DNA of 64,000 nucleotides, taken from positions 186,001 through 250,000 of the forward strand of contig NZ_JBBKTU010000001.1 of assembly GCF_037892605.1 (NCBI RefSeq). Reading direction: 5' to 3'. The notes beneath the pieces are model-generated. The model saw only the letters and a list, made by a program, of their open reading frames with translations. It searched no databases and was not told the origin of the DNA. Each line of letters starts with the position of its first letter. Position 1 is the first letter of the stretch. Positions 20,381-63,998 of this stretch are shown in pieces. This DNA is from Lacibacter sp. H407 (GTDB taxonomy: Bacteria; Bacteroidota; Bacteroidia; Chitinophagales; Chitinophagaceae). The position numbers and the translations under genes are program-made.

Positions 20381-20401
20381 TTTACTACGTGAGATCATAC
20401 T

Positions 20402-23401: not shown

Positions 23402-23486
23402 TAACTAGGTTTTAAGGCTTAAAGAGTTTCGTTTGTGCTTAATCGATATCAATCTTTGATTTGTTCCTGTAATCAATCGATGTTCA

Positions 23487-25319: not shown

Positions 25320-25331
25320 AGTATTTATCAA

Positions 25332-28300
25332 TTATAAACTGAGGTTAATTCCAAAGTTGATCCGGCGAACCGTTGGGTATGCTCCCTGACCGGAGAAATT
25401 GCTTGAACCAACATTTGCTTCACGATCATCGGGCATCTTACTCCAAAAAAGAAGGTTATTACCATTTACATAAAGACGCATTGATTGAATACCTGTTTTT
25501 GTCAACCATAATGGATCTAACGTATACGATATTTCCGCTGTTTTTAAACGAACATAAGAACCGTCGTAGTTGAAGAAATCGCCATAACTATATAACCGGG
25601 ATTTCCATCGGGGAAGTGGTGAAGCAGCATCTGTATTCTCTTTTGTCCAATAATCTCCTTGTTTGAAAACAGAGTTCAGATTTGCAGCGAAGTTTGTTTG
25701 CGCAAGATTCCTTGTTACATTATTAACTGCATAGAATTGAACGAAAATTGAGAAACGTTTGTAATCAAATCCCACGCTGCCGGTGTATGTATTTTGAGGA
25801 CGTTCCGGATAGGCGTAGGGTACATTATCAAAATTGTTAATTACACCATCACCATTGAAATCAATCAGATTAAAGTTGCCGGGTAATTTGTTATTATCGT
25901 TTTGATCCACAACACTGCTACCGTACACTTCATCCCACGTATTGTAATAACCTGAACGCAATTGCGATCTGTACTGTCCGATCTGATAACCCGCCTGCTT
26001 TAAATAATCATCCAATAATTGAGGATCGTCCCGATCGATGATCTCATCCTTTGCATGCGTTATGGCTACATTTCCCCATAAACGCATCTCTCTTTTGCTG
26101 CCAAAGTTTTTGTTGAACTTCAATTCAATTTCATATCCTTGTACAATTGTTTTACCCAGGTTAGATGTTGGTGGTGTACCGCCGAAATAAGCAGGCACCG
26201 CTCTTTGAGTTCCCGCTACTAACACGTCGGTTCTTTGATCTCTGTAAACTTCGAACGTACCTTCAATCAGTCCTCTGAATAATGAGAAATCTAAACCGAT
26301 ATTGGCCTTGGCCACTGTTTCCCAATGGATATCCGGATTACCAATTGTATTTTCTCTGAACCATACATAAGGACTGTTTGCATTGTTATCACCCATTCGT
26401 GATTGACCTCCAAAGGCCCACTGTGTTAGATAAAGATAATTTCCACCAATAGCGTCGTTACCTACCAGACCGTACGAACCACGGATCTTCAACGTGGATA
26501 CCCATGGCAATTTGTCCATGAACTTTTCATTCGTCAATGTCCAACCTACTGCGGCAGAAGGGAAAAAGTCGAACCTGTAATCAGGACCAAATCTTTGTGA
26601 ACCGTTGTAAGCTCCGTTGATCTCAGCAAAGTATCTGTTTGCAAAATTGTATGTGCTTCTAAACACCCAGTCTTCACGAAACTCAGGAAACGAGCTGCCC
26701 TGTGCATTTTCATTGCGCATAAACAAGCCCATGGTTGTGATATTATGCCTTCCGATTTTAGCAGAATGATTCAGTTGTAACTGATACACACGCCTTCTTC
26801 TTGTTTGTCCATTCTGGAAAGCATCAGGACGTACTGACCATTGCGGTAATATATAATCGAACTGATTAGGACCTGCTGTGTTTCTGTATTGCACTCTTCC
26901 GTCAGGAGCGATCCATTTAACGATCGCACTTCCATCATCAAATTGACCACCTTGCGCAACAAACGTATTATCTAAAGAATACGAACCTCTAAACGAAAGG
27001 TTTTTTACCAACATCCCCAGATCCTGTGTCAATATAAAATCGGTTGTCATCTGCGTAGTCTTCGTATTTCTTACCCCGTTGTTTGAAAGTATGTGTGCAG
27101 GGTTATTGGTTGACACTGGATCAAGCGGATAATAACCAAAAGCACCATCACTGTACTGCGGATAAAAAAGATCGGGTGCAAGACCATAAATTCCCTGATA
27201 CCATGAATATTCAAAACCGCTCCATGTATCCTGTCTTTTTCCATAAAGTGTGGAAATGTTAGTTGAGAGCGTAGTACTTTTTGTTAGTTTGAAATCAAGG
27301 TTTGCACGAATATTTAACCTGTCGTAAAAAAATCCCGGCTTGTAACCTTTTCCATTGTCAGGGATTTTCATAATGTCGCCTTCATGAAGAAAATCTACAG
27401 AAGTAAAATATTTTACAAAACTTGATCCGCCTGAAATATTGATGTTGGCATTTTGTGCCATCGCCATTTTCTTTAATGACTCAGCCTGCCAGTCAATATT
27501 GGGATATTGCTGTGCTTCTTGCGCATTTGCAGGGTTACGATATTTATCAATAATTGCCTGCGGTGTATAATCTTGCCAGGATGCCGGACTAACGCCCAAC
27601 TCCCGTTCGATCGCCATATTTCTGATTGTTAACGCATCATATGCATCGTACTTCTCGGGCAAACGAGAAGGAACTTTCATTGTAGAGTTAACTGTAATAT
27701 TGATGTTTGCTTTACCTTCTACACCTCTTTTAGTAGTGATAAGAACAACACCGTTTGCACCTTTTACACCAAACACGGCTGTAGCAGATGCATCTTTTAA
27801 TATCGAAACACTTTCTACTGAACCAATATCAACTCCAGCCATAGGACGTTCAATACCATCTACTAAAATGAGTGGTCCTGCACTGTTCCATGTTCCCTGA
27901 CCCCGTATAAAAATGAGCGGATCTTCAGCACCCGGCATACCTGTTCCCTGTACAGTTATAACGCCCGGTACATTACCTGTAAGTGCGGCACCTATATTGG
28001 AAACACCACCCGCACGCTGAAGTACTTTACCTGTTGTTTGAGTAATGGCACCAACAACGCTTTCTTTCTTCTGTCGACCATAACCCACCACCACAACGTC
28101 TTCTAACGTAGAGCGTGCAACACTTAACCTTACTTCGATGATATTTTGGTCTCCTACATTCACTTCCAACTCATCCATTCCAACATAACTGATCAAAAGC
28201 GTTTTGTCTTTTGATGGAATTGTTATTTTGAAATTACCAGCGGCATCGGTTGTAGTTACAATAGCGGTACCTTTTACCTTAACGGTAGCCCCGGAAAGGG

Positions 28301-28436
28301 CAACACCAGAAGAATCTTTAACTGACCCCGAAACCGTTTGTGCACTTACTTGTGCCATAACCGGTAACCCCGCCAATAAAATCCCGAAAAGAGCAAGTGT
28401 CAGCTTATGCAGCCAGTTGTTTGCCACGCATTTCAT
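25332..28436 (-). CDS. SusC/RagA TonB-dependent outer-membrane receptor (xusA position)
   Basis: A 1034-residue receptor, first gene of the main operon. A signal peptide (to about residue 29, VMAQ) is followed by a CarboxypepD-regulatory-like domain (VSGSVKDSSGVALSGATVKVKG). Next comes a TonB-box-like strand LEDVVVVGYG at about 112-121, then the plug (LILVDGIERPM and VSILKDASATAVFGVKGANG). The beta-barrel ends RRINFGINLSL. There is no STN domain ahead of residue 30, which matters for how the neighbouring sigma factor could receive a signal. It works with the adjacent SusD to bring oligosaccharides across the outer membrane. Confidence 0.95.
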   Translation of the reverse strand: MKCVANNWLHKLTLALFGILLAGLPVMAQVSAQTVSGSVKDSSGVALSGATVKVKGTAIVTTTDAAGNFKITIPSKDKTLLISYVGMDELEVNVGDQNIIEVRLSVARSTLEDVVVVGYGRQKKESVVGAITQTTGKVLQRAGGVSNIGAALTGNVPGVITVQGTGMPGAEDPLIFIRGQGTWNSAGPLILVDGIERPMAGVDIGSVESVSILKDASATAVFGVKGANGVVLITTKRGVEGKANINITVNSTMKVPSRLPEKYDAYDALTIRNMAIERELGVSPASWQDYTPQAIIDKYRNPANAQEAQQYPNIDWQAESLKKMAMAQNANINISGGSSFVKYFTSVDFLHEGDIMKIPDNGKGYKPGFFYDRLNIRANLDFKLTKSTTLSTNISTLYGKRQDTWSGFEYSWYQGIYGLAPDLFYPQYSDGAFGYYPLDPVSTNNPAHILSNNGVRNTKTTQMTTDFILTQDLGMLVKNLSFRGSYSLDNTFVAQGGQFDDGSAIVKWIAPDGRVQYRNTAGPNQFDYILPQWSVRPDAFQNGQTRRRRVYQLQLNHSAKIGRHNITTMGLFMRNENAQGSSFPEFREDWVFRSTYNFANRYFAEINGAYNGSQRFGPDYRFDFFPSAAVGWTLTNEKFMDKLPWVSTLKIRGSYGLVGNDAIGGNYLYLTQWAFGGQSRMGDNNANSPYVWFRENTIGNPDIHWETVAKANIGLDFSLFRGLIEGTFEVYRDQRTDVLVAGTQRAVPAYFGGTPPTSNLGKTIVQGYEIELKFNKNFGSKREMRLWGNVAITHAKDEIIDRDDPQLLDDYLKQAGYQIGQYRSQLRSGYYNTWDEVYGSSVVDQNDNNKLPGNFNLIDFNGDGVINNFDNVPYAYPERPQNTYTGSVGFDYKRFSIFVQFYAVNNVTRNLAQTNFAANLNSVFKQGDYWTKENTDAASPLPRWKSRLYSYGDFFNYDGSYVRLKTAEISYTLDPLWLTKTGIQSMRLYVNGNNLLFWSKMPDDREANVGSSNFSGQGAYPTVRRINFGINLSL

Positions 28437-49714: not shown

Positions 49715-50785
49715 TTATGCTTCGCTCATGTCAGCAGCTTTGTTCAGCATGGTTTCAAATAACTCCTTCTTTTCCTGCAAGCGTTGTAATAAAACGATCT
49801 GATTTTTAGCCCGTACAAAATTATGCTGCGGATACCGGCTGCCATAGTACACATCATTGTTGAGATAATCTGTAAGAAACCGGATGGCTTGCATATAGAT
49901 CATAAATGTACCCGAATAAAAAAAGTATTTCTTTTCTTCTGCTGATAACTCGTTCTTCACTTCATTGAAATAACCGCTGACGATTGCTTCATAAAATTCA
50001 TCCCTCACTTCAACCAGAGAATAATCACTTTCTTCTTCGCTTACAGGTGAGAGATAGGTACGCATCATATCGCCAAGATCGCTGATGAAATAGCCGGGCA
50101 TCACAGTATCCAGATCAATTACACAGATACCGTTATTGTAACTGTCGAATAACACGTTACTGATCTTGGTATCGTGATGCGTAGCCCTTATTTTAAAGCC
50201 GGTTCCGTTTTTTAATTTTTCAAAATCACGAACAATATCATTGTTCAGCTTAATAAACTGAATGAGTTCATCAGCTTCGTTTATTCGGCTCTTATCGCCT
50301 GTTGTAAGCGCTTCTAAAAACTGCTGGTACCGTAAGGACAAATTATGAAAATCGGGGATTGTAATTTTCAAATCACTAACGGAAATGCCGGCCAGCATAT
50401 TTGTAAACTTACCAAACCTTGCTGCGGCCTGAAACGCTTGCTCTGGTGTTTCTACCACATCCTTTGAATGTGAATCGGGAATAAACGGAAACATGCGGAA
50501 ATATTCATGTTCGCTTTTTTGTACAAGCGTACTTCCGTCCAATGCAAAAATCGGTTGCAACAAATTGTATTGAGGATAGTATTGCTGCAAATGTGCCGCA
50601 ATAAGATTCAGATTCTTATCAATATCTTCAGGTTTCTTGAATACTTCATCATTTACTTTTTGAAGTACATAATCCTTCCCATCTACCGAAAGCTTCCAGG
50701 TTGAATTGATCAATCCATTTCCTAAAGGAGACATATGCAATTCATCTCTCTTCAACCCATAACGCCTTATAACAAACTCCAACAT
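49715..50785 (-). CDS. phosphotransferase-family kinase, N-acetylhexosamine 1-kinase-like
   Basis: A 356-residue cytoplasmic kinase of the aminoglycoside-phosphotransferase fold. The N-lobe has SPLGNGLINSTWKL, a glycine-rich nucleotide loop, and YVLQKVN with the lysine. The catalytic loop is THHDTKISNVLFD (Asp base, Asn Mg ligand) and the metal loop is VIDLDTVMPGYFISDLGDMMR. This set closely resembles NahK-type N-acetylhexosamine 1-kinases, which phosphorylate GlcNAc or GalNAc at C1. If so, it could salvage amino sugars released by the neighbouring M60 locus on the same strand, although a 234-base gap separates them. Other sugar or choline-type kinases remain possible. Confidence 0.75.
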   Translation of the reverse strand: MLEFVIRRYGLKRDELHMSPLGNGLINSTWKLSVDGKDYVLQKVNDEVFKKPEDIDKNLNLIAAHLQQYYPQYNLLQPIFALDGSTLVQKSEHEYFRMFPFIPDSHSKDVVETPEQAFQAAARFGKFTNMLAGISVSDLKITIPDFHNLSLRYQQFLEALTTGDKSRINEADELIQFIKLNNDIVRDFEKLKNGTGFKIRATHHDTKISNVLFDSYNNGICVIDLDTVMPGYFISDLGDMMRTYLSPVSEEESDYSLVEVRDEFYEAIVSGYFNEVKNELSAEEKKYFFYSGTFMIYMQAIRFLTDYLNNDVYYGSRYPQHNFVRAKNQIVLLQRLQEKKELFETMLNKAADMSEA

Positions 50786-51019
50786 TACTTTCTTTTTAAT
50801 TGAACAATGCCTGCCCTCAGAAAAAATTACAGATGAATAATAAACAGCCTGCCTTCTTTAATGCACAACAAATCAGTGTTTTTTACACAAAGGTCAACAG
50901 TTGAATGATGTTTCGATAACAAGTATGCATGATCGATGAATAAAAAATTCGTTTTCATGGGCGGCGATCTGTGAAACGGTATTTAAATCAATCCACACTT
51001 CTATACTTTGCGCTGCTGT

Positions 51020-52780
51020 TTACAATTTCACAAATTCCTGCTCGTACAGCTCAAGCCATTTACTGCCTTCCAATCCCCATACTGCCTGTGTATTTAATTT
51101 CAACCAATAAAAAACTGTTGTAGCAAACCCTGAGTTTGTTAAGAACAAGTTTGTTTTTCCCGGATCCACAACACTTGAGAAACTACATGGAAATTCAGGA
51201 ACGGGCTTCCATTCAAAACTGCTTTGCAGAATAAAATCTTTATTAACAGCGCCGGGTGCATAGTTTTTAAACCGACCACCTAATCCATCTGTACATGGCC
51301 AGTAGCCTGTAAGGTTCGCATACTTACTGTGTTGTGTAATGTTTTTTACACAAAGGTTTGCTGCTACTTCTGCAGAGCTTAAGCCTACATTGAATATTTT
51401 AATATCGGATACATTGTATGCAACATGCGATGTAAGTGCATCGCCTGCATTTCCCTGACCCCAACCTAAGATCAATGGTTGAGGCGACGTAATTGCACCA
51501 AACGAAGAAATATCTGTTTCGTCAATTTTTACACCATCCCTGTAACGCTTGGCCCAACGTTTTGAAGCACTGTCAACAAACACCAATGTAAGCGTATGCC
51601 AACTGTTATCAACTACCGCAGGTGATTGCGGAAGCCCCGGTTGAATACGCACATTACCACTGGCACCTCTTAACTGTAAATTCCAGTTATTGTTACCGCC
51701 GGAAAAATAGGCAAAGCCGGGATCGCCCGAATCAAGAATATTACCTGATGCAGGTCCTTTCTTCGTAACAAACAACGGAAAGCCACCACTACGGCTGCCT
51801 TTCATTTTCATTTCTATCGTCATAGGCCCTGTACCCGGATTATAAGCAGAAGCATCGCTCATAACTGCTCTTACACCTCCCTGTCCTCCTTTCATTTGTA
51901 CATTCACAAAAGACCCTTGCTTTGTAAATTCTGTTTGCTTAAATGCTTCGTTGTAATAAAAAGAAAAAGCCGTTGTTTCTTCAGGGCTAAAGCCACCATG
52001 GCTGTTTCCTGTACCACCATGTGTACTGGCTACCACCACCAACCATTCTTCATTCTTATTATACCCGGGCCTTGCTTTTAATGCCATCATCATTTCGCCA
52101 ATATAGTTGTCAACCTGTGATGCTGCATTTTTATAATCGCTGTTTGCTTCACTGAACCCACCCGATTTACCGGCAATAGCAACAGAGTTGAAATGCACCA
52201 CCATAAATTCAGGATTGCCATTTTTAATTCGCTTTACTGCAGAATCTTTCACCGCTACATCGTTGGCTGCTGTTACAGGATCCTGTACTTCAGGCACCAG
52301 TTTTTCAACCATGGTTGACCAAGGCGAAATAAACACTGTACGCATTTCATTTTTGGGTGAAGAAAGGATGTACGAAAAAATTGAAGGGAAATTCGGTATT
52401 GCTCCGTGTTGCGGATCATTGATCCCTTGCGTATAAATGAATGTACTGTCTTTTATTTTGTGACGTGAATAAGAGATACCGCTCATGAGTGTTTTCCACG
52501 ATGCACCTGAAGTACTTAATTCATCTGATATACCATCCCAGCTGTATTTACTTTTTGCCAACATACCCTGCAATGCAGGCAATGTCATTTTTTTATACTC
52601 ACCGGGCACTGCACCATCAATACCAATGAACAGTATTCTGCGTGATGCAGGCTTTGTTGTATCGCCCGGATCCTCAAAATAAGGAGGCGGATCAACATAA
52701 CGTTTACAGGAGGCAAACAATATGATCATGATTCCTACAGAAGAAAGTAAGAGAGCAATATGCAGTTTGTTCTTTTTCAT
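51020..52780 (-). CDS. surface lipoprotein: degenerate alkaline-phosphatase-like domain, LamG, DUF4983-like end
   Basis: A 586-residue lipoprotein (lipobox LFASC, about residue 25). Residues about 48-300 have an alkaline-phosphatase/phosphodiesterase fold pattern: RILFIGIDGAVPGE, SWKTLMSGISYSRH, then VDNYIGEMM. The usual metal motifs are altered: the DxxGH site reads SVAIAGK and the late DHG motif reads THGG. A LamG/ConA-like module follows (about 310-470, with SWHTLTLVFVD and RYRDGVKIDE). The last 100 residues (LTGYWPCTDGLGGRFKNYAPG and VWGLEGSKW) match a DUF4983-like end. A glycan- or peptide-binding role fits better than hydrolysis. It is last in the M60 locus and is a paralogue of the protein at 54981-56738. 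Confidence 0.75.
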   Translation of the reverse strand: MKKNKLHIALLLSSVGIMIILFASCKRYVDPPPYFEDPGDTTKPASRRILFIGIDGAVPGEYKKMTLPALQGMLAKSKYSWDGISDELSTSGASWKTLMSGISYSRHKIKDSTFIYTQGINDPQHGAIPNFPSIFSYILSSPKNEMRTVFISPWSTMVEKLVPEVQDPVTAANDVAVKDSAVKRIKNGNPEFMVVHFNSVAIAGKSGGFSEANSDYKNAASQVDNYIGEMMMALKARPGYNKNEEWLVVVASTHGGTGNSHGGFSPEETTAFSFYYNEAFKQTEFTKQGSFVNVQMKGGQGGVRAVMSDASAYNPGTGPMTIEMKMKGSRSGGFPLFVTKKGPASGNILDSGDPGFAYFSGGNNNWNLQLRGASGNVRIQPGLPQSPAVVDNSWHTLTLVFVDSASKRWAKRYRDGVKIDETDISSFGAITSPQPLILGWGQGNAGDALTSHVAYNVSDIKIFNVGLSSAEVAANLCVKNITQHSKYANLTGYWPCTDGLGGRFKNYAPGAVNKDFILQSSFEWKPVPEFPCSFSSVVDPGKTNLFLTNSGFATTVFYWLKLNTQAVWGLEGSKWLELYEQEFVKL

Positions 52781-52904
52781 GTGTAATTATTTATTTTTTT
52801 TGGCCACATGTTATTCACCATAAAATTTTTATCGGTAGTTGTTATAAATTACCTCAAAAATTTTATGGCTCATTTCATATTATTCATTTATCTCGAATAA
52901 AAAA

Positions 52905-54932
52905 TTAAGGTCGTACAATATTTATTTCAGCTAATGCTGAGTTGTTACCTGTTGGATCATTATCGGATGTAGCAGATACAACATACCGGAAATACCTGGC
53001 TGTAATATTTGCAGTGAGATTGAAGCTTTGTAATCCCTGTTGATTCAACAATGTCATAGCACCGGCAATTGTACTTGCACCGGTCACAAACGTAACCGGG
53101 GTCCAGTTAATATTATCGTCACTTACCTGTACCCGTATGTTTTTAATACGGGTTGCTGTACCTGTACCACTTTGCCTTAATGCAGCAGCAAAACCTTTGA
53201 TGACTGTTGGCACAGCCATATCCACCGTAATTGTGTGCGTTGGCGATGTTGGTCCGGTACCGGTTCCATAATTACTATGCCAATACGTAGTGAACGAACC
53301 ATCGAATGCATTATTAATGGTTCCGTTTGAACCTTCACTTGTAGACCATGAACTTGCAGTGGCCGTCCAGATCGTTCTCTTTTCAGTTGCCTCTCCATCT
53401 CCACCTGTTTTTGTTAATGGGTTATACTTCCATATTTCCTGGAATGATAAAGGATAAACGCCTGCCATCTTGTTTAGTGAAATAGTACTCACGGTAATAC
53501 CCCATGCTTTGAAAAATGCACGCATATCCCTGCGGGTAAAATCGCATAATGTTTCGTACACAAAATCACGTTTGTTCTGATCGGTCAACGATATCCTGTT
53601 TGAACGTCTTGTTTTTTTGTACAACTCTGTTACAAAGCTCCATCCATCCGGTTGCCCGGGATAACCCCAATTAGCCGGTATCTTACTCATGATCTGAATG
53701 AATGGTGTTAACCGTGCAAACGGATCATTGATCGCAGCATCGGTGCCATCAAAATTTCTTGTGCCTATAGCAGAAGATGCCCATGTGATTGCTCCGGGTA
53801 TTGCTGTTGCCAGCGCAGGATGTTTCGGAGGCCATGCAGTTGGAGTTATTGCGCTCAACCGATTGGCAACTTTAAACGAGAAAATGTTACAGGTAACTTC
53901 ACCTAATGTGCTCCAGCTCCAATAAGTACCTTGCTGATTGTTGTGCCCCACTTCATGGAATACACCCCAGTTACCGCCGCCATTAATGTTGGTGACGTTG
54001 CCAATTCCATCGAACCAACTGTAATCGTTTTGCACAACAATTGGGAAACCAGAGTGACCATAACCTACAACAGGTTTAATATCCATCACCACTCTCCATG
54101 GAAGAAGCGGTGCTTCATCAATTGCATCAACAGGATTTTCACTCAAACCTTCCCATTGGTAAAAATCAAGATTGATAATATCATCCCAATCCTGCATTGC
54201 TTTTTGAATATCAGCAAACGGCCGGTCGATACAATATTGACGTGGTACAACAAAGATCATGTTGGCACTTCTTAATTCAAGCCATGGTACACAGGATGAA
54301 CGTATGGCAGCTTCCCAGGTTGCCCGATCAGTTTGTCCCAGTACAAAATCAGGCGACTTCACAACATTCGTAAATGATAAGTTTACCGGAGTTGCAATTG
54401 GGCGACCTGCGAATATATAAATATGGCCTCCGTATAAATTCCGTAAATAATTTCTTCCGGGATTTAACTGGCTGCGTGTATAAATAACGGGATCACGTGG
54501 TGCATTCTGGATAGTAGAAAGATTATCCGTCCATGCACCTATTTGTACAGACAATGAATATTCGTTTTGCGGAACATCAATGATCACCAACTCACCGGGA
54601 GCTGCATAAAGCCCCGTACTGAATTGCGGACTTGGCGGAACAGAGATACGCAACTCATCCTGCACATGGTTGTAATTTAAATTCATTGCAATATCCACTT
54701 TGGTTCGTGGTTCAGATGCACACACCAAACCGGGAAACACCCTTGCCTGTGCGTACTTACTTGCATCTACATTTTTAATACTTGTATCAACCGTAATGCT
54801 GCCTGCAGGCGCACCATTACCGGGAGTACCATCTTCAAATTCGTATGCATATTTTTTTCTGCATGCGGTTACTGCTACTGAAAGTAACAGCAGGCAAACC
54901 GATAATCGCTTAACAAGAATAACAGAATTCAT
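52905..54932 (-). CDS. M60-like (PF13402) zinc metallopeptidase with F5/8 type C domain, lipoprotein
   Basis: A 675-residue surface lipoprotein (lipobox VTAC, residue 24). A beta-rich N-terminal domain (about 60-180) precedes the peptidase domain (about 190-500), which holds the zinc motif HEVGHN (His326, Glu327, His330) and the third ligand Glu345 in STLGEVTCN. The C-terminal 150 residues (WSTSEGSNGTINNAFDGSFTTYW, then VQVSDDNINWTPV) form a discoidin/CBM32-type domain. Characterised M60-like enzymes (BT4244, IMPa) cut O-glycosylated proteins such as mucins next to the glycosylated residue. Its place between two paralogous lipoproteins in a SusC/SusD locus suggests glycoprotein degradation at the cell surface. 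Confidence 0.9.
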   Translation of the reverse strand: MNSVILVKRLSVCLLLLSVAVTACRKKYAYEFEDGTPGNGAPAGSITVDTSIKNVDASKYAQARVFPGLVCASEPRTKVDIAMNLNYNHVQDELRISVPPSPQFSTGLYAAPGELVIIDVPQNEYSLSVQIGAWTDNLSTIQNAPRDPVIYTRSQLNPGRNYLRNLYGGHIYIFAGRPIATPVNLSFTNVVKSPDFVLGQTDRATWEAAIRSSCVPWLELRSANMIFVVPRQYCIDRPFADIQKAMQDWDDIINLDFYQWEGLSENPVDAIDEAPLLPWRVVMDIKPVVGYGHSGFPIVVQNDYSWFDGIGNVTNINGGGNWGVFHEVGHNNQQGTYWSWSTLGEVTCNIFSFKVANRLSAITPTAWPPKHPALATAIPGAITWASSAIGTRNFDGTDAAINDPFARLTPFIQIMSKIPANWGYPGQPDGWSFVTELYKKTRRSNRISLTDQNKRDFVYETLCDFTRRDMRAFFKAWGITVSTISLNKMAGVYPLSFQEIWKYNPLTKTGGDGEATEKRTIWTATASSWSTSEGSNGTINNAFDGSFTTYWHSNYGTGTGPTSPTHTITVDMAVPTVIKGFAAALRQSGTGTATRIKNIRVQVSDDNINWTPVTFVTGASTIAGAMTLLNQQGLQSFNLTANITARYFRYVVSATSDNDPTGNNSALAEINIVRP

Positions 54933-54980
54933 GCTTGTTCGTTTTATTGTAACTAGTTTATTGATCGTTCGTTTTCTTTA

Positions 54981-56738
54981 TTAACCTCCACTTACATCGC
55001 TGTAGGTCGGAATCCAGTTTTTTCCATCTAATCCCCATGCAGCAGGTACCGTAATTCCAAACCATGCATAGATCTGCGTTGCTACATCCACCGAGTTTGG
55101 AACTGTTTTGTAAACAGGTTCGCTAACAGGAGGACAAACATTTGCATTGAGATCATTAAAGCTGCCCGGAGAATAAGCTTCAAGTGTGAAAGCACGACCG
55201 AACGGACTTGCGTCTTGCATTTTAAACACACCATTATCATTGATAACAGGGAAGCCTGGCCAGAAACCAACAAGATTATTATAATACTGACTGGATGGTT
55301 CAATGCTTGTTGTACAATACGTATTTGCAATATAGCTGTCGGGCAAGGCCACGTTGAAATACCTGATATCCGTTATATGATAATTGCTGAGCCCTGTTAC
55401 ATTATCTGGAGGAAGATTTCCGATTGTAAGCGGTTGAGGACTGTTGAGATTTCCATAACTGGTAATATCTCTTGTAGCTGCAGAAATACCTGTGTTATAA
55501 AGAACACCATCAGTATAGGTATAAACGTTTCTGGCAGCGCCTTCTTTTCTTATTACAACGGTAAGTGTATGCCATTGACCATCGGCAATTACATGCCCAC
55601 GAATCTGGCGGTTTCCTAAACTTGTTTGTCCAATGTTCACCATCCAATAGTTAGCTTCCAGAAAAAACACCCATCCAACAACTCCGCCGGAAAAAGATGC
55701 ACGTTTTGATACGATCGCAGGATAGTAGTAATTCCCGACCGGTATCTTTACTTTACATGAAATCGTCATTTCCCCTGTTGATCCAATATCAAATGCCGAT
55801 CCTCCATCCAATACTTTCGCTCTGCGATTTTGTGCGAGTGTACCTGAAAACAATGGCGCCGTTCCTGTGTACGGAATCAATGCACCGGGCTTTGATAATC
55901 CTTTGCTGTTAAAGCGTGGGTTAAAGCAAAAGAAAAACGTATTATGTCGTGTATCCTCAAACGCAGACCATGAGCCGGATGGATTGTAAACTGTATTGCT
56001 TCCTTTGTTTGAAGTAATGATCACCATCCAGTTTTCTGATTTGAATGATGGACGGTTTCTGAGAGCAGTTAATATTTCACCAATGTATGCATCGGTTTGT
56101 AAGATCGCATCTTTATAAGTTGTTGAACCAACTGTGTACGATGATGCTACACCTGCTTTATCAACCGCATGAAATTGTGCCAGCACCAGGTCAGGGTTTT
56201 GTGTATTCAATTCAGCTTTCACTGCTTCTTTTACCGCTGCATCATTTTCATTGAACGATTCATGTTTTGTAGCGTCTGCTGCCAGTTCACCGGCAATACC
56301 ATTTGATGAAAAGAACGCAGTTGTTCGCATGCCGGGCCTTTGTTGCTTGAGTCTTGTAAACAACGAAGGATAATCTGCAAAACGGTTACCGGTAAAATTT
56401 GCACCGGTAACATTGTGCTTATTTACTTTTACGCCGGTAAACAGGTTCGACCAACCTAATTCATTTGTAACATTTACGTTATCATAATCGCTCAATGCAT
56501 CCCATGAAAAGATGGAATAATCTACAAGGCTGTTAAGCACGGGCGGGTTCGATACCTGCACCTGTGTACCTACTGCACCGTCAACTACGATCACCAATGT
56601 TTTTGGATTAACAACTGTTGCAGCATTTCCACCTGCAGTTGTTTCCAAAGGATTGGGAAATGATTTATTGCAGCTTGCTGCTATAAATCCTGCTCCGGCA
56701 AAGAGAAATAAAACCTTTAGATATTTCAGACGTATCAT
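54981..56738 (-). CDS. surface lipoprotein: degenerate alkaline-phosphatase-like domain, LamG, DUF4983-like end
   Basis: A 585-residue lipoprotein (lipobox IAASC, about residue 23) with the same layout as the protein at 51020-52780. The alkaline-phosphatase-like part reads TLVIVVDGAVGTQV, NELGWSNLFTGVKV, FHAVDKAGVASSY and TDAYIGEILTAL. The late DHG motif has become NKG in ITSNKGSN, and the His of DxxGH is missing, so metal binding seems lost here too. A LamG-like module (about 305-455, WHTLTVVIRKEG) and a DUF4983-like end (AAWGLDGKNWIPTY) follow. It precedes the M60 gene by 48 bases. Confidence 0.75.
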   Translation of the reverse strand: MIRLKYLKVLFLFAGAGFIAASCNKSFPNPLETTAGGNAATVVNPKTLVIVVDGAVGTQVQVSNPPVLNSLVDYSIFSWDALSDYDNVNVTNELGWSNLFTGVKVNKHNVTGANFTGNRFADYPSLFTRLKQQRPGMRTTAFFSSNGIAGELAADATKHESFNENDAAVKEAVKAELNTQNPDLVLAQFHAVDKAGVASSYTVGSTTYKDAILQTDAYIGEILTALRNRPSFKSENWMVIITSNKGSNTVYNPSGSWSAFEDTRHNTFFFCFNPRFNSKGLSKPGALIPYTGTAPLFSGTLAQNRRAKVLDGGSAFDIGSTGEMTISCKVKIPVGNYYYPAIVSKRASFSGGVVGWVFFLEANYWMVNIGQTSLGNRQIRGHVIADGQWHTLTVVIRKEGAARNVYTYTDGVLYNTGISAATRDITSYGNLNSPQPLTIGNLPPDNVTGLSNYHITDIRYFNVALPDSYIANTYCTTSIEPSSQYYNNLVGFWPGFPVINDNGVFKMQDASPFGRAFTLEAYSPGSFNDLNANVCPPVSEPVYKTVPNSVDVATQIYAWFGITVPAAWGLDGKNWIPTYSDVSGG

Positions 56739-56769
56739 AATCGTATCAATTAATGTGTTTATGAATCTG

Positions 56770-58440
56770 TTAGTTTTCCATACGGATTTTTACAATGTCT
56801 CCAACTGTCTTACCATCGAACCTGTCAAAATCTCCTACCAGTATTACACCAGGTGTTCCGTTAATAACGATCTGTACCAGATCATTGATGGTTCCTCTGA
56901 ATAATCCGGTGTTGTTGTAACCCAACGCCAATTCACCGTTACTTTCAAGCACCATAAAACCGGGACGAACAATTGATTTATCGGGTGTAGTCAAATAATT
57001 GTAGTTGTAATGACTAAAGCTGCCGGCAACAATAATTTTTCCATTGTTTAACTGTGCAGCAAAAGTTGGTATACCACCTGTTGCCCGTCCAAACTTGAAC
57101 GTTGCGTCTGTTGAACCATCAGGGTTGATCATCACAACACCATTTGCATCCTGTCCATTGTATTTCTTGAAATCACCAACAAGTAAAATTTTATTGGTAG
57201 TTGCATTATATCTGATCTTATTGATTGGGCCATCAGCACCAACTCCGCCTTGATTAAACGTAGCATCTACCAATCCGTTTGCCGGATTAATGCGTGTGAT
57301 ATAGTTTGTGGTTGTTCCGTTAAACGTTGTAAAATTTCCTGCAAGAATGATCTTTCCATCGTTCAACTGCACGGCATCATAAATAAATCCATTACCGCCT
57401 TCGTAACCTTCCTTCGTTGCAAAATTGAAATTGAATGAAGAATCAAATGCACCGGTTGATTTCATGCGAATCAACTGACGCACTTTCACCAGATCCACAA
57501 ACGGACCTGTTTTGGTTGAGCGCTCATAAAACGTACTTACATGACTTGAGAAATTTCCTATCAGGGTAATATCACCTGTTGTTGAATTGAAAAACATTTT
57601 TGTAATACCACCACCGGATGTTCCTCCATTCAGAGATGCCACTGTTGCCGTTCCGTCATTTGGAAAATTGACCGGGTCTGGATTAATGATGTCAACAATC
57701 TGCGTTTCCAATACACCGGCTGATGTTAAACGGGTAATATTGTTGATGCCATTGGTAGTATCGTAACTGCTGAAAGCGCCTCCGATCAAGTATTGACCGG
57801 TGGGTTGTTGAATTACACTTGTTAAACTTCCTGCAACACCCGTTTTGCCAACCTTCATTTGATCGGCTACAGCTTTGTATGCACAGTTGAGATCAACAAT
57901 TGCCATACCTGTAATCGGATTCGCTACGGTAGCACTGTTTTGGTAGTTAGAAAAACGTCCGTACAGAAAATAGGAAGTATTATCAGAACGCAGAAAAATA
58001 CCATTGATCGCACCATCTGAAACATATGCATCTGGATTAAAGGAAGCATCAATGGAAAGTTTTCCTTTGATCACAAATGTTGGTCCGAAGTAGTATTGTC
58101 CGTTGATGAGCACATTGGCAGCACCTGTACTTGCTCCTAACGGAACCTTTACTGTAATTGCATTTTCTTCAACTGTTATAATTTCTGCTTCGGTAAGATG
58201 AACGAAAAACTTAAACTGTCCTTCCTTTCCTTTCAAACCGTTCACATTAAATTTTACAATGGAACCTTCACTGCCAATGGCAGGATAAGGACCACCATCC
58301 AGAAACTTTACCAATACAGGGGGTGGGGCGGGATATACTTCCGAAGGCTCTACCTTTTGTTTTGAGCATGAACTTAAAAGTACAGCTACAAGAAAACAAC
58401 TGATTGCTGCAAGGCTTACCTGCCTGTTCTTTATTGTCAT
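56770..58440 (-). CDS. surface lipoprotein with IPT/TIG-like domain and delta-60 repeats
   Basis: About 556 residues from ATG 58440 (an ATG at 58473 is also in frame); the lipobox is LLSSC. Residues about 35-130 fit a DUF5008/IPT-type beta-sandwich (GSEGSIVKFNVNGLKG, ITVKVPLGASTGAANVLING). The rest is a delta-60-repeat (DUF5122) propeller with units such as NDGKIILAGNFTTFNG, NKILLVGDFKKYNG, NNGKIIVAGSFSHYN and GVILVGDFDRFDG. Such proteins often sit behind susD and are thought to bind substrate at the cell surface. The gap to the fasciclin gene is 57 bases and to the next gene 31. Confidence 0.8.
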   Translation of the reverse strand: MTIKNRQVSLAAISCFLVAVLLSSCSKQKVEPSEVYPAPPPVLVKFLDGGPYPAIGSEGSIVKFNVNGLKGKEGQFKFFVHLTEAEIITVEENAITVKVPLGASTGAANVLINGQYYFGPTFVIKGKLSIDASFNPDAYVSDGAINGIFLRSDNTSYFLYGRFSNYQNSATVANPITGMAIVDLNCAYKAVADQMKVGKTGVAGSLTSVIQQPTGQYLIGGAFSSYDTTNGINNITRLTSAGVLETQIVDIINPDPVNFPNDGTATVASLNGGTSGGGITKMFFNSTTGDITLIGNFSSHVSTFYERSTKTGPFVDLVKVRQLIRMKSTGAFDSSFNFNFATKEGYEGGNGFIYDAVQLNDGKIILAGNFTTFNGTTTNYITRINPANGLVDATFNQGGVGADGPINKIRYNATTNKILLVGDFKKYNGQDANGVVMINPDGSTDATFKFGRATGGIPTFAAQLNNGKIIVAGSFSHYNYNYLTTPDKSIVRPGFMVLESNGELALGYNNTGLFRGTINDLVQIVINGTPGVILVGDFDRFDGKTVGDIVKIRMEN

Positions 58441-58497
58441 CGCTGAAAAATTTTTAATCGTTTGCTTTATCATGAAAAACGCTTACGCTTTTTATAC

Positions 58498-59211
58498 TCA
58501 GTAAATAATGCCTTTGTCAATTACATCTTCAATAAACTGGGTGGTTCCAAATCCGAAAAAGTGATACTGATAATTCAACACATGTACATATCCGTTAGTG
58601 GGTGCAACATTCACCGATGCAACAATAGCCGGGAACCAACTGTTATAATCTCTCGGTGCTGAAACAGATGGGATAAAGGAGATCATCAACTGCCTGTAGC
58701 CTGCATACTTTACACCACCGGCATCATTATAGATCACGCCGATATTCATAATGTCGCCGAGATAAGAACTGTAGATCTGTCCGGGATAAGCGGATAAATT
58801 GCCCGGGTCGAGCTGCGGATAATCGTTCATTGAACGGGCATCTTTAAACAGGTAACGGCTCAATTGTTTTTTCCATACTTCCGGTTTAATTTGATCGAGC
58901 CTTGTTACACGTGGCTTCCCTTTCCTGTCCAACTCGAAATTTAATATCCGTATTGAAAGTGCAATGCTTGAATCGGCAGGAGCAAAGAAGGTGATCTTTT
59001 CATTTTTGAATACATCTTCCATCCCTGCAATGCGGATCACTTTCAACAACGAATCCCACATGTATGGTTTTGATTTTAAATAATCAAATACAGTACCCTC
59101 GTAATTGGGTGTATGCTTCCCTGTATCAGTGAAGTAATCATTTTTCTGACAACCAACTGAAATGGTTGTGATGAGAACAGCGATGATGATGGAGCGATTC
59201 ATATATTTCAT
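58498..59211 (-). CDS. fasciclin-domain lipoprotein
   Basis: A 237-residue lipoprotein (lipobox ISVGC, about residue 21). The fasciclin pattern is visible: VFDYLKSKPYMWDSLLKVIR, then KITFFAPADSSIALSIRIL, and YLFKDARSMNDYP. The C-terminal YVHVLNYQYHFFGFGTTQFI is the second conserved strand and differs from the usual GVVHVID. FAS1 domains mediate adhesion and are recurrent in Bacteroidota PULs between susD and the binding proteins. It lies 19 bases after the susD stop. Confidence 0.85.
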   Translation of the reverse strand: MKYMNRSIIIAVLITTISVGCQKNDYFTDTGKHTPNYEGTVFDYLKSKPYMWDSLLKVIRIAGMEDVFKNEKITFFAPADSSIALSIRILNFELDRKGKPRVTRLDQIKPEVWKKQLSRYLFKDARSMNDYPQLDPGNLSAYPGQIYSSYLGDIMNIGVIYNDAGGVKYAGYRQLMISFIPSVSAPRDYNSWFPAIVASVNVAPTNGYVHVLNYQYHFFGFGTTQFIEDVIDKGIIY

Positions 59212-59230
59212 CTGCCTTTATTTTTATTTG

Positions 59231-60787
59231 TTATTGCCAGTAATTATTTAATGTCATACCGGGATTATTGACCAATGCCGATGGATGAATAGGCCATGTC
59301 CATGCACCTGCTTTAAATTGTTCTACCGTGCAATGGTAACCGAACTTATATGTTGGATCGATGATGCGTTTTGTGCGTACCACATCAAACCAATAATGAC
59401 CTTCGCCCAATAACTCCCTGCAGCGTTCATAAAAAATATCTGTTTTTAAATCGGCACCTGTACTGGTTAATGGAACAGCAGCAGCTCTTTCACGCACAAT
59501 ATTTACTTTGTCTTTTGCTTTTGCTTCGTTGCCAAGATTTGCTAATGCTTCTGCATGTAACAGAATTGCATCGGTATAGCGGAAAATGATCTGGCTTGCA
59601 TCAAACGAAGTACCATCAACCGAATTCGGATCACGGTTCACAAAAAACTTCAGCATTTTAAAGGTTCTGTTACCACTGTACATGGTTGTAACATCAAACC
59701 AGTAATCAGTTCGTTTGTCAGCCTGTCCAACCGGATAAATGGTTTCCATGAATTTGGTATCGTAACTGATATAAGGATGGCTGGGATCCGGATTCAACCG
59801 ATCATAATAAACAAGATCATAGTAGTACGACCAGCCAAATGATTCGCCATAGTTTGCATTCTGTGGCACTTCAAACAAACCTTCTTTTGAACGGCCTTTA
59901 AAAATTTCACCATTACGTTCCAATGGCAACAACGCATACGCACCTTCGTTATCGTTATACAGCTCATCGCCCAATACATCTACAGCTTCGTAATATCCTT
60001 TTTCATTCCCTGTATCAAATGCAGCAAGCCACATGTTGATATGCATTAACAATGCAAGAGCCGATCCTTTCATGCCACGCACAGCCACAAACACCGGATC
60101 TTTATACGTCCATGGCAGATCATCTTTTACAGCCATCAAATCTTCCCGGCATTTTTTTAATACTTCCACCATTGGCATACGTTTCAATGGTGCACTGTGG
60201 TAAGCATCTGTATAGTAAGCAACATCACCCCACTGACGAACCATCAGGAAATAAGCCATGTTGCGGATGAAGATCGCTTCTGCTTTGTATTGCTTTCTCT
60301 CTTCCGTAGTTAATGAAGGATCGGGTACGCCATCAACACGATCAACCGCAATATTAGCCGCAGCGATCACTTTATAAAAATTATCCCACTGGCTGAAACG
60401 GATCATATTAAATACACGATACCAGTTATTACCACCACTTGGCGCATCAACAAAAAGTGCATTAATATTATTGTTTGATAAATTACCAATGTAAGTACGC
60501 CCCCAGTTCAATTCGGTGTTCTCTTTCGCCATACCACCTCTCAAATCGCCGGAGAAAGCAAAGAAGGGAAAGTTGAATGAACCTGCAGAGGCTTTCATGT
60601 CGAGCCTTGCAACAGATTTGCGCAGCAGCTCATACATACCATTGGTATAGTTTTCAAGATCAGTTCTTGTTTTCCAGAAATTATTTCCTGAAAGCGCATT
60701 GGGTGGATCAAGACTTAAATATTTTTTACAACCGCTGCCAAACAGAAGTATTGTTGTAACTGTAAGTATGCTGATAATACGTTTCAT
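59231..60787 (-). CDS. SusD/RagB-family lipoprotein of the M60 locus
   Basis: A 518-residue lipoprotein from ATG 60787 with lipobox FGSGC followed by KKYLSLDPPNALSGNNFWKT, a standard SusD start. The helical part includes KAEAIFIRNMAYFLMVRQWGD. The C-terminal signature is FYERCRELLGEGHYWFDVVRTKR and the end is NPGMTLNNYW. It should bind the ligand of its SusC partner, whose stop codon lies 25 bases upstream. A longer open frame to 60826 overlaps susC and is not needed. Confidence 0.93.
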   Translation of the reverse strand: MKRIISILTVTTILLFGSGCKKYLSLDPPNALSGNNFWKTRTDLENYTNGMYELLRKSVARLDMKASAGSFNFPFFAFSGDLRGGMAKENTELNWGRTYIGNLSNNNINALFVDAPSGGNNWYRVFNMIRFSQWDNFYKVIAAANIAVDRVDGVPDPSLTTEERKQYKAEAIFIRNMAYFLMVRQWGDVAYYTDAYHSAPLKRMPMVEVLKKCREDLMAVKDDLPWTYKDPVFVAVRGMKGSALALLMHINMWLAAFDTGNEKGYYEAVDVLGDELYNDNEGAYALLPLERNGEIFKGRSKEGLFEVPQNANYGESFGWSYYYDLVYYDRLNPDPSHPYISYDTKFMETIYPVGQADKRTDYWFDVTTMYSGNRTFKMLKFFVNRDPNSVDGTSFDASQIIFRYTDAILLHAEALANLGNEAKAKDKVNIVRERAAAVPLTSTGADLKTDIFYERCRELLGEGHYWFDVVRTKRIIDPTYKFGYHCTVEQFKAGAWTWPIHPSALVNNPGMTLNNYWQ

Positions 60788-60812
60788 CTGATTTTTGTTT
60801 TTTCTTTTACAA

Positions 60813-63800
60813 TTAAAACTGAACATTTAAACCAACTGCATAGCTCCTAGCGTTGGGATAACCACCGGAGTTATCTCTTCCCAACTGTGTAACCAATTCA
60901 GGATCGGGACCGCTGTAATTTGAAAATGTAAATACATTGTTGGCCGTTAATGTAAACCTGCACGAAGTCATCTTAAAACGTGAAATGAATTTTCGATCTA
61001 GGTTGTACGCCAATACGATGTTGTTGATTTTCCAGTACGAACCATCTTCAAGGAACAAGGTTTGATTTGAACGGAATGGTTGCATTACACGTGCTCTTCT
61101 GAAATCGAATGGATTTGGATATTGAGCATTTACTGTACCGGTTCCTTTATCTCCTGGAGATGGTTTCCAGTAATTGTATTCATCAATCGGCACCAATGCA
61201 CCGGGCAATAAACGTTCGCCATTAGGTCCGATGGCTGCGGGGTTTCCAAAGTTTTGCATGGTTTGCGCCAGCGAAGCATTCAGCAGATCACGAAACAGCG
61301 TGTAGGATGCATTAATATTTAACTGGAAGTTTCGATACTGCATTTGTGAAAGAATTCCTCCGATCACTTTTGGAATGGGATTACCAATTGGCAACAGATC
61401 TTTTTCATCAATGATGTAATCGCCGTTTACATCGGTCCAGCGTGGATCGCCTCCCTGAAAATAATAACCCATACCTGAGCCCAACTGTTGACGCCTTCCT
61501 GTTGCAATGTTTACGGGCACATCCGACGTGCTGCTATAAACACCTTGTGTATGATAAATGAGATTGGAGATTGCATTACGTCCTATTCTATAAATAACCG
61601 GCACATCGCTTCCATTATCTTTTATCTCTTTCCTTATCTGGCGGAGATTATCGGGCAGCTTAGTGAGTATTTCACGGTTAAAAGCTCCGTTCACTGCAAC
61701 TGTCCACTGAAAGGGTTTGCTTTGTTTGAACATACGTACTGTTGCCGACCACTCCATACCATAGTTTACCAAACTCACAGCATTTGTTTGCAACTCAGCA
61801 AAACCACTTGTATTGGCCAGTTCAATTTCCATGATCTGGTTATCAATAGACCGGTAGTATGTTTCATATGTAAGTTGTAAAGCGTTGTTGAAAAGACCTA
61901 ATTCCAAACCGGCATTTGTTTGTGTTTGTGTTTCCGGTAAAAAGTTTTCATTCGGAACAGTAGAATAGTCGATGGTTACAGTTGGGTTGTTGTTGTACGG
62001 TAAACCAACAATGTATCGGCCATAGGTATCAAATATGTCGCCGGTAGGTTTAATGTTACGTCCCCACGAAACCTTTGCAGACCCATAACTTAACCAGGAA
62101 ACTTTTTCCAGCCATTTTTCCCGGTTAAAGTTCCAGCGTGCACTCACAGCAGGATTTTTTGAATAAGGTTGTTTCGAACCAATATTTGATAACCCATCAA
62201 AACGGAAATTGAAATCAATTACATATTTACGATCGAAGTTGTATGAAAAAGATCCGCCATAACCATGCTGTCTTCTTTCAAAAATATTATCTAATGTACC
62301 TCCACGTGTAGCTGCCCATCCATAACCGATAGGTCCTGTTATCTGATCATTTGCGGTACGAACTAACCGAACAGCATTTGCACGAAACCCATTTGAAGTG
62401 ATCTCATTAAATACAAACGCATTAAAATTGTGCAGATTATTTATACTCTTTGTAAAATTTATATTCGAACGATTGTTTAACTGATAGGACCTGCTGTTAA
62501 AACTAAATGACTGTGATGAACCATTGCTGAGAAACGATGGTGTAAACCTGTCTTCTGTACCTGAATTAAAATTGTAACTGAGCAGGTTGCCAACACGAAG
62601 TCCTCTTACCGGCTCGTATGAAATATCAAGACTGGTAAGAATATTTGCTGTTTTATTATTATTGGTAACTCTTGCTGTAGCAAGGGCACTGTTATTTTCA
62701 GAGAACAATGATGGTGATGGAAGTAAGGAAGAAGCTGATCCGCCACTTGCCAACCCTGTTTGTATCAACCCTACACCGCTACCGTTTTGTTTTTGTCCAA
62801 GCTGGCTTGAAAGATTCATTTGTACACGCAACTGATTGGTAGGTGCATATTGTGCATTCATGCTGAGACCATAACGTTTAAATCCTGTATTCTGCACAAT
62901 CCCATTTTCCTGGTAATAGTTCAGGTTGGTTTTGTAGTTGAAACGGTCATCACCACCACGTATGCTTAGGTTGTGCTGCTGGTTAGAAGTAGAACGGAAA
63001 AAATAATCCTGCCAGTTGGTAGAGTTGTTGTAGTAAGGATTAAGGCTATCGGATAAAAACGGGGTTTGATTGATCAGCGCCTGTGCTGCTGTAGCAGAAG
63101 TATCATAATCAAGAATGGTACGTATACGGAACAAACGTTCTTCCTTACCACCAAGTACTTCACGTAAACGTGGAGGTGATTTTACAAAGTAGCTGGATGA
63201 GTATTGTACAATCGGTACTTTTGATTTACCTCTTCTTGTGGTAACAATAATAACACCGTACGCTGCTCTTGCTCCGTATACAGATGTTGCTGCTGCATCA
63301 CGCAACACTTCCATCTGTTCAATATCTTCCGGCGGTATCAATGCCAATGGATTGATACCTGAGCCACCACTTTGAAATCCATATTCAAAATTTGTATTTA
63401 CATCAACCGGAACACCATCTATCACAAACAAAGGAGATGTGGGTGTTAAGAAACCATCACTGCTGATGTTGATACTTGATATACCACGTAAGTTAATGGT
63501 GCCCATACCACCCGGAGAACCTGAGTTATTCTGTACGTTCAATCCGGCCACTTTACCCTGCAACAGTTCCACCACATTCGATACAGGAACATCCTGTAAT
63601 GCTTTACCATTGATAACGGTGCTTGATCCGGTTGCAGTTTCTTTTGTTTTTTGACGGAAGCCCTGGATCACTACTTCCTGCATGGTGTTATCCTTTACAG
63701 AAAGTGATATTTCAACGGATGAAGTACTTGAGAGAAATGTTTTGCGTGAAGCTGTATAACCTGAGTGCGAAAACACAAGTTCAGTTCCTGCATCAATGGT

Positions 63801-63998
63801 TACTGTAAACGCACCATTTGCATCTGTAGTTGCAATTGTTTTGGAAGGCTTGGTAGTAGATACTGTTACACCCTGCATAGCTGTTTGCTGTGCATTGTCT
63901 TTTACAACACCTTTCACAGTTATCTTGTTTTGTGCCTTCGCATTCACAGCAAAAAGAAGTGCAAGTGCCATTATCCCGATACAGGGTAACAATCTCAT
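60813..63998 (-). CDS. SusC/RagA TonB-dependent receptor of the M60 locus
   Basis: A 1061-residue receptor with a signal peptide ending FAVNAKAQ (residue 23), then a CarboxypepD-regulatory-like domain (TVKGVVKDNAQQTAMQGVTV). A TonB-box-like strand MQEVVIQGF is followed by the plug (FVIDGVPVDVN, MEVLRDAAATSVYGARAAYG). The barrel ends RSYAVGLNVQF. No STN domain is seen. The ATG at 63998 is two bases from the window edge, so a start further upstream cannot be excluded. It heads the seven-gene M60 locus as far as visible; the regulator lies outside the window. Confidence 0.93.
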   Translation of the reverse strand: MRLLPCIGIMALALLFAVNAKAQNKITVKGVVKDNAQQTAMQGVTVSTTKPSKTIATTDANGAFTVTIDAGTELVFSHSGYTASRKTFLSSTSSVEISLSVKDNTMQEVVIQGFRQKTKETATGSSTVINGKALQDVPVSNVVELLQGKVAGLNVQNNSGSPGGMGTINLRGISSINISSDGFLTPTSPLFVIDGVPVDVNTNFEYGFQSGGSGINPLALIPPEDIEQMEVLRDAAATSVYGARAAYGVIIVTTRRGKSKVPIVQYSSSYFVKSPPRLREVLGGKEERLFRIRTILDYDTSATAAQALINQTPFLSDSLNPYYNNSTNWQDYFFRSTSNQQHNLSIRGGDDRFNYKTNLNYYQENGIVQNTGFKRYGLSMNAQYAPTNQLRVQMNLSSQLGQKQNGSGVGLIQTGLASGGSASSLLPSPSLFSENNSALATARVTNNNKTANILTSLDISYEPVRGLRVGNLLSYNFNSGTEDRFTPSFLSNGSSQSFSFNSRSYQLNNRSNINFTKSINNLHNFNAFVFNEITSNGFRANAVRLVRTANDQITGPIGYGWAATRGGTLDNIFERRQHGYGGSFSYNFDRKYVIDFNFRFDGLSNIGSKQPYSKNPAVSARWNFNREKWLEKVSWLSYGSAKVSWGRNIKPTGDIFDTYGRYIVGLPYNNNPTVTIDYSTVPNENFLPETQTQTNAGLELGLFNNALQLTYETYYRSIDNQIMEIELANTSGFAELQTNAVSLVNYGMEWSATVRMFKQSKPFQWTVAVNGAFNREILTKLPDNLRQIRKEIKDNGSDVPVIYRIGRNAISNLIYHTQGVYSSTSDVPVNIATGRRQQLGSGMGYYFQGGDPRWTDVNGDYIIDEKDLLPIGNPIPKVIGGILSQMQYRNFQLNINASYTLFRDLLNASLAQTMQNFGNPAAIGPNGERLLPGALVPIDEYNYWKPSPGDKGTGTVNAQYPNPFDFRRARVMQPFRSNQTLFLEDGSYWKINNIVLAYNLDRKFISRFKMTSCRFTLTANNVFTFSNYSGPDPELVTQLGRDNSGGYPNARSYAVGLNVQF

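Follow-up and report, generated by a model that had tools for sequence, protein, structure and literature searches.

What does a locus import if it encodes SusC/SusD-type receptor pairs and an M60-like peptidase, and no glycosidase? Such a locus lies at the end of the window analysed here, a 64,000-nucleotide stretch of Lacibacter sp. H407 (C1:186001-250000 of the 4.87-Mb genome, C1 being contig NZ_JBBKTU010000001.1). The reading that we favour, tentatively and at slightly less than an even chance, is LacI-controlled capture, cutting and import of glycoproteins of the N-acetylgalactosamine (GalNAc) type, with Ser/Thr-O-linked glycans, by a free-standing surface machine.

The initial annotation described seven genes in a row. 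All seven were present on the minus strand at the coordinates listed below, with gaps of -14, 19, 24, 31, 48 and 124 bp; the extent of the locus had to be revised. SusC1 starts 31 bp outside the window (L002:3532; C1:250031), and four further minus-strand genes precede it at L002:3545-9957, with gaps of 12 to 50 bp. Because the window edge cuts the locus and these co-directed genes lie beyond it, we count eleven genes with two receptor pairs. The whole unit reads, in order, SusC2, SusD2, Fas2 (fasciclin), DUF5007, SusC1, SusD1, Fas1, propeller, APa, M60 and APb. Upstream of the block, a 590-bp gap is followed by ftsZ-like and ftsA-like genes (read by eye). The genes within the window, with Pfam E-values, are:

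60813-63998, minus strand: SusC1, TonB-dependent transporter of the SusC/RagA type (Plug, 8.7e-21; CarbopepD_reg_2)
59231-60826, minus strand: SusD1, lipoprotein of the SusD/RagB type (SusD_RagB, 3.8e-24)
58498-59211, minus strand: Fas1, small fasciclin-like lipoprotein with a weak match (Fasciclin, 0.036, below the cut-off; found here in 10 of 10 block-bearing family genomes)
56770-58473, minus strand: propeller lipoprotein with DUF5008 (4.5e-7) and DUF5122, delta-60 (4.2e-29)
54981-56738, minus strand: APa, alkaline-phosphatase-superfamily-like protein with a LamG-like stretch and DUF4983, probably a pseudo-enzyme (DUF4983, 1.3e-11; Phosphodiest, 9.3e-6)
52905-54932, minus strand: M60-like peptidase with M60-like_N, Peptidase_M60 and a C-terminal CBM32-type F5/8C domain (M60, 7.7e-42; F5/8C, 8.7e-17)
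51020-52780, minus strand: APb, second alkaline-phosphatase-like and LamG-like lipoprotein, probably a pseudo-enzyme (Phosphodiest, 4.2e-8)
49715-50785, minus strand: APH-family kinase directly downstream of APb and outside the invariant eleven, probably a BT4240-like kinase of GalNAc or N-acetylhexosamine (HexNAc) (APH, 2.3e-15)

Most domains assigned earlier were recovered, namely the receptor pair, the delta-60 propeller and the M60 peptidase with its CBM32-type domain. The fasciclin assignment of Fas1 was weak, as was LamG, which fell below the Pfam cut-off in APa and, for APb, was represented solely by a profile match to Sialidase B chains (E 0.005); DUF4983 was not found in APb by Pfam. 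The propeller scored 49.2 bits against NCBIfam delta_60_rpt, under its cut-off of 76.5. Beyond the window, Fas2 matched the Pfam fasciclin family with E 1.6e-5 and the DUF5007 protein scored 277.7 bits. For both SusC1 and SusC2, the best solved chain was the SusC homolog 8aa4, followed by RagA; SusD2 best matched 3hdx (440 bits), which we take to be BT0269. The reported lack of glycosidases, sulfatases and lyases extends to the whole block: no glycoside hydrolase (GH), polysaccharide lyase, carbohydrate esterase or sulfatase family was matched by Pfam among the eleven proteins, which carry a CBM32-type domain only. Of the marks of a polysaccharide utilization locus (PUL), susC-susD adjacency occurs twice in the block, and a carbohydrate-active enzyme is absent from it by Pfam.

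The zinc site of the window peptidase is intact. Its PF13402 domain scored 144.2 bits against a cut-off of 25.8, and residues H326, E327, H330 and E345, forming HExxH..E, were invariant in ten aligned M60 sequences (the window protein and nine relatives). The motif was kept in 61 of the 71 M60 orthologues of named loci, and in 61 of 62 within the soil-type clade. In Niabella drilacis, HQLGH replaces HExxH, apparently an independent loss of the catalytic glutamate. HExxH was missing from all nine gut-type homologues read, which come from Sphingobacterium FBM7-1 (L124), six Bacteroides, and metagenome-assembled genomes (MAGs) of a Dysgonomonadaceae and, poorly aligned, an Odoribacteraceae member. 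In the SusC1 tree, the eight of these loci that have SusC1 are split off from the rest by one branch (support 100, length 1.11 substitutions/site); this was a quick tree whose long branches were flagged by the program. Of 158 Bacteroides genomes, 6 gave a match to the M60 homologue of B. faecis, and three of these were read for the motif. A crude pattern detected a lipobox-like start in 61 of 73 M60 proteins. Judged by its sequence, the window protein is a putative O-glycopeptidase. A 2012 survey ties the M60-like domain to host-associated microbes and lists four such proteins in B. thetaiotaomicron, three of them with HEXXH, including BT3015 and BT4244 (PMC3267712). Our guess is that BT0277 is the one lacking it.

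The accessory proteins look like binding parts. For APa and APb we checked the metal-ligand and nucleophile positions of nucleotide pyrophosphatase/phosphodiesterase (NPP) enzymes. The NPP-type ligand positions were not conserved in ten aligned APa/APb sequences, and the first aspartate alone was widely kept. Among 69 APa and 69 APb proteins, DHG was present in 1 and 2, respectively, a looser pattern in 4 and 26, and HGG in 58 of the APb. With their partial Pfam signature and catalytically dead look, both proteins are probably best read as binding modules. The AlphaFold model of APb was poor (mean predicted local distance difference test score, pLDDT, 62.8). For DUF5007, the model (pLDDT 81.4) resembled no known fold convincingly (best E 1e-3, template modelling score <0.3), and no solved relative of DUF5007 was found by sequence at E 0.1.

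The arrangement of these genes is constant across many genomes, more so than chance would give. An M60 orthologue above 480 bits was found in 10 of 147 family genomes, our own included, and all ten M60-bearing genomes have the same eleven-gene order, with 27 to 92% identity to the window proteins (for SusC2, over part of its length where the region stopped short). Among 395 genomes drawn from the phylum, where a full-length M60 meant more than 690 bits and the first three candidates per genome were scored, three carried the M60 orthologue, and DUF5007 turned up in just these three. Using M60 as bait in named genomes brought up 75 loci, and genes 4-11 stand in order in 65 of them. The ten exceptions comprise three other M60 genes, three loci at contig ends, two extra downstream M60-profile hits and two loci with broken or missing frames. 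SusD2 was present in 20 of 20 genomes picked from the named loci. The nearest named loci, with 89% identity in M60, are those of Lacibacter luteus and L. cauensis, and the host names include soil and rhizosphere isolates. The expected co-occurrence of DUF4983/LamG proteins with M60 and SusC/SusD was borne out in both family and named loci. Within the genus, the block has moved, standing beside a recN-like gene in one genome (G083) and beside ftsZ in ours. PULs are usually mosaic and differ between close relatives, whereas this order is held from soil Chitinophagaceae to gut Bacteroides.

Several neighbours link the block to GalNAc metabolism. The downstream kinase (49715-50785), missing from the earlier account of the locus, follows the block here and lies within ~ 3 kb of it in five of the 75 named loci. 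It is 54% identical to a second kinase of the same genome, located beside GH109 and LacI genes, and equally to a kinase beside GH109 in the genome G009. Four of eight plasmid-collection matches to it were inspected. Three are Bacteroidota kinases with 33-34% identity: the B. finegoldii kinase (34%) lies beside GH2, the Persicobacter one (33%) in a LacI-SusC-SusD-Gfo/Idh/MocA-kinase-GH2 locus, and the Parabacteroides one has no GH2 or SusCD-type neighbours. The fourth match carries no annotation. BT4240 is described as a GalNAc kinase, likened to the HexNAc kinase BL1642, and shares its PUL with the M60 protein BT4244, the GH109 enzyme BT4243 and the GH2 enzyme BT4241 (PMC11992087).

A palindrome points in the same direction. 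Of 15 soil-type loci, which are mutually related, 14 carry CAANCGNTTG no more than 600 bp before SusC2 (the exception is L169), and none of four other loci does (three gut-type, one M60-less); its background is 52 occurrences in 1,445,768 bp of named loci. We take this palindrome to be a LacI/GalR-type operator. The longer form GCGCAANCGNTTG has five matches in our genome, three at the block promoter, whose palindromes stand at C1:256602-256638, and two inside other genes. A LacI gene adjoins the block upstream in both Pinibacter-type loci and downstream in two Mucilaginibacter loci. The nearest LacI of our genome, at C1:725352-726362, is 51% identical to the Pinibacter one (369 bits, the next match having 171) and is clustered with GH109 (295.7 bits) and the second kinase ~ 0.5 Mb from the block. 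Moreover, G009 contains a compact locus, LacI-M60-GH123-SusD-SusC with a divergent GH109-kinase pair (L041 6867-19901, L195 1544-4015), apparently a PUL for GalNAc glycoproteins. Its LacI and GH109 are 68% and 73% identical to ours, and ACGCAACCGTTTGCGT, the same palindrome as at the block, lies between its SusC and GH109 genes.

Other flanking sequences were less uniform. GH2 and GH27 genes lie downstream of APb in ten Pedobacter-type loci, nine of which also have a second M60 gene (L077 does not). Fourteen further upstream flanks showed mostly housekeeping genes by eye, and Pfam confirmed GH36, GH88 and GH35 in one locus each (L172, L174 and L177). Upstream of our own SusC2 there is no Bacteroides-type promoter (TTG-N-TAnnTTTG); the pattern was seen in 3 of 15 other loci. 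A consensus scan of window positions 50700-55100 gave 12 sigma-70-like sites against 12.2 expected, and 7 terminator-like sites against 3.3.

Gene order, the zinc motif, the lost phosphatase ligands, the palindrome, the kinase neighbour and, in some relatives, the LacI neighbours were read from the DNA; from these we infer the following course of events. The lipoproteins would bind the glycoprotein, with the fasciclin-like, DUF5007, propeller and two pseudo-phosphatase/LamG proteins serving as putative binding or scaffold parts. The M60-CBM32 protein would cut the backbone beside the O-glycan, presumably at the cell surface, and the two SusCD pairs would import the resulting glycopeptides. GH109 and other glycosidases, encoded elsewhere, could then free GalNAc, which the downstream kinase would trap. 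A LacI-family repressor, possibly the one of the GH109 cluster, would act on the palindromes before SusC2 until the sugar appears. The earlier proposal of O-glycopeptide capture fits the intact HExxH..E, the SusCD pairs, the kinase, the LacI-GH109 cluster and the palindrome common to the G009 PUL; the substrate that it names is conjectural.

Several observations weigh against this account. The kinase follows the block in six loci only, and neither Pfam nor NCBIfam names its substrate. Our LacI is nearer to that of the G009 PUL (68%) than to the block-adjacent LacIs (45-52%). In consequence, it need not be the regulator of the block, and we slightly lowered our confidence both in this explanation and in the broader reading of the chassis given further below. 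No CAANCGNTTG was present in our own LacI/GH109 cluster (L194, 19.9 kb). The Pedobacter GH27 proteins best match proteins named alpha-galactosidase. Finally, gut-type blocks with motif-less M60 lie in arabinogalactan PULs, and paralogous blocks without M60 exist. Three rival explanations were weighed.

The first rival is an importer of arabinogalactan proteins (AGPs), in which plant O-glycoproteins with hydroxyproline-linked arabinogalactan would be captured and imported while M60 trims the backbone. We read the same eleven genes in order directly in B. faecis and the Dysgonomonadaceae MAG, and pieced them together from two overlapping loci for B. finegoldii and a Bacteroides MAG. Just upstream of the B. 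finegoldii block lies a hybrid two-component system (HTCS) gene, with GH43 genes further out; GH88, GH28 and GH35 genes follow ~ 15-22 kb downstream, and in Sphingobacterium FBM7-1 GH35 comes directly after the block. Two of the B. finegoldii GH43 proteins have as best solved chains 6euf (920 bits), presumably BT0265, and 3nqh (685 bits); their lower-scoring matches include exo-beta-1,3-galactanases.

Published work on B. thetaiotaomicron agrees with this placement. As reported by Martens et al. (PMC3243724), BT0262-90 is listed for arabinogalactan with BT0267 as its HTCS, the loss of which left 78.9% of growth, and BT0268 is named an arabinogalactan-responsive susC (PMC6874557, PMC5061871). 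The printed labels are SusD, hypothetical, DUF5007, SusD and DUF5124 for BT0269-75, and carbohydrate-binding protein, alkaline phosphatase family protein and hypothetical for BT0277-79 (PMC10434189). BT0268-BT0278 are eleven gene numbers, and these labels, our sole basis of comparison for B. thetaiotaomicron, fit the block except for DUF5124, which is unmatched. The gene set, put forward by the initial annotation as undescribed, therefore corresponds by number and label to part of a published arabinogalactan PUL. To that extent, a described locus with the same genes and a known substrate, named at the outset as a ground for abandoning the proposal, does exist; but the gut clade stands far apart by sequence, and its M60 lacks the motif.

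The divergence of that clade, 1.11 substitutions/site away in SusC1 and accompanied by loss of the zinc motif, speaks against transferring the AGP function to the window. The soil-type loci have LacI-type palindromes, not an adjacent HTCS, and the window block has the kinase on one side and ftsZ/ftsA-like genes on the other, with neither HTCS nor galactan-active enzymes adjoining. In a 2026 paper, the PUL5 genes BT_0270 and BT_0273 are given with substrate unknown (PMC13088901). A GH43_24-like gene is commoner in block-bearing family genomes (8 of 10) than in the others (23 of 137), and might seem to favour AGPs. We rejected it as evidence of arabinogalactan, because the control, GH10, shows the same trend (10 of 10 vs 59 of 137; GH18, 9 of 10 vs 95 of 137), so that the count marks a plant-feeding lifestyle; no PUL genes are evident around the GH43_24-like gene of our genome. 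The AGP explanation, once our first choice, was lowered on account of the M60 motif loss and the LacI/GH109/kinase links, and we now consider it unlikely, though deserving serious weight.

The second rival treats the block as a generic uptake chassis with a clade-dependent substrate and M60 as an accessory, so that the substrate here may be neither a GalNAc glycoprotein nor an AGP. Further SusD2 sites yielded ten blocks, one of which (L159) coincides in place with L081. In four paralogous blocks genes 1-9 are retained, while two other lipoprotein-like genes stand in place of M60 and APb; the four replacement proteins scanned gave PA14, PKD and F5/8C matches, some F5/8C ones below the cut-off. 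In the SusC1 tree, these M60-less blocks are set apart from the rest by a single branch (support 100). Near them we saw a GtaA-like gene (L151) and a GH32 gene (L152). APa is missing from two Niabella blocks, and four other blocks carry the standard set. The operon end is, given the M60-less and APa-less blocks, changeable, and the glycosidases found downstream vary by locus (GH2, GH27, GH84, GH20, GH35). The M60-less blocks probably combine the same chassis with another substrate. Whatever its substrate, the block is a two-receptor chassis rather than, as the initial annotation had it, a locus built around M60, which four paralogues lack and which is motif-less in nine gut-type homologues. 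Nevertheless, if the chassis were generic, it would be a coincidence that regulator, palindrome and kinase all lead to GalNAc-type genes, and we regard this rival as improbable but not negligible. That the same machine preys on bacterial O-glycoproteins (its own or its neighbours') rather than on animal mucin-type ones is very improbable: soil and rhizosphere hosts and the varying selectivity of M60 enzymes (PMC13355702) would allow it, the sequence evidence does not separate the two preys, and the GalNAc-type genes favour GalNAc-linked substrates.

Returning to GalNAc-type glycoproteins as the favoured substrate, the block may exemplify something broader, namely a glycosidase-free two-receptor chassis for protein-linked glycans with a constant front and a changeable end. 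In soil and rhizosphere Bacteroidota it would carry an active M60 and be wired through LacI to the GalNAc pathway; in gut Bacteroides it would sit in an arabinogalactan PUL, its peptidase decayed to a binding protein at an unchanged position. We hold this generalization to be possible, albeit doubtful. The literature searched (mostly without subscription papers) contained neither a two-receptor, LacI-linked form without glycosidases nor the loss of the M60 site in the gut clade, and no account of what the block genes do was found there. DUF5007 and BT0277 each came up in one paper, and of DUF4983, DUF5008 and DUF5122 only the last did, likewise in one. If correct, the proposal would make import of glycoproteins, and not just glycans, by soil Bacteroidota directly testable. 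It would also point to a function for the DUF5007, DUF5008, DUF4983 and fasciclin-like lipoproteins, and lead one to expect that M60 proteins of the BT0277 type, in the arabinogalactan PULs of gut species, act by binding and not by cutting. We must also note a separate locus in the window (16316-28436), with two SusC/SusD-like pairs and a GH10 enzyme (C1:202328-203338), which is probably xylan-directed.

SusCD systems with M60 for O-glycoproteins are already known, and the block itself exists inside a known PUL. The closest functional parallel is BT4240-50, with the M60-like protein BT4244, which resembles the block in SusCD import, in a surface M60 and, if our reading of the kinase holds, in a pathway that runs through GH109 and an APH-like GalNAc kinase; a glycopeptide import model has been published for it (PMC11992087). 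BT4240-50 has one receptor pair and glycosidases in the locus, whereas the block has two pairs, six further binding-type genes and no glycosidase, as well as LacI-type palindromes and a GH109 gene ~ 0.5 Mb away. Where BT4240-50 unites M60, GH109 and GalNAc kinase in one SusCD locus, only M60 and the APH-family kinase stand together here. The same paper mentions two further B. thetaiotaomicron PULs with M60-like homologues (PMC11992087), and the BT0277 locus may be among them. BT0262-90 shares the eleven genes and their order (read in B. faecis and B. finegoldii, and by labels in B. thetaiotaomicron); unlike the window block, the gut type has HTCS and glycosidase genes nearby and an M60 that lacks the motif in the nine homologues read. 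At the protein level, the window peptidase resembles PF13402 O-glycopeptidases in its domain, HExxH..E, CBM32-type domain and lipobox-like start, and may be presumed to act like them. SusCD utilisomes and RagAB-type peptide importers are related machines, which the block resembles in its SusC matches (8aa4, RagA) and from which it differs in having two pairs in one operon of fixed order.

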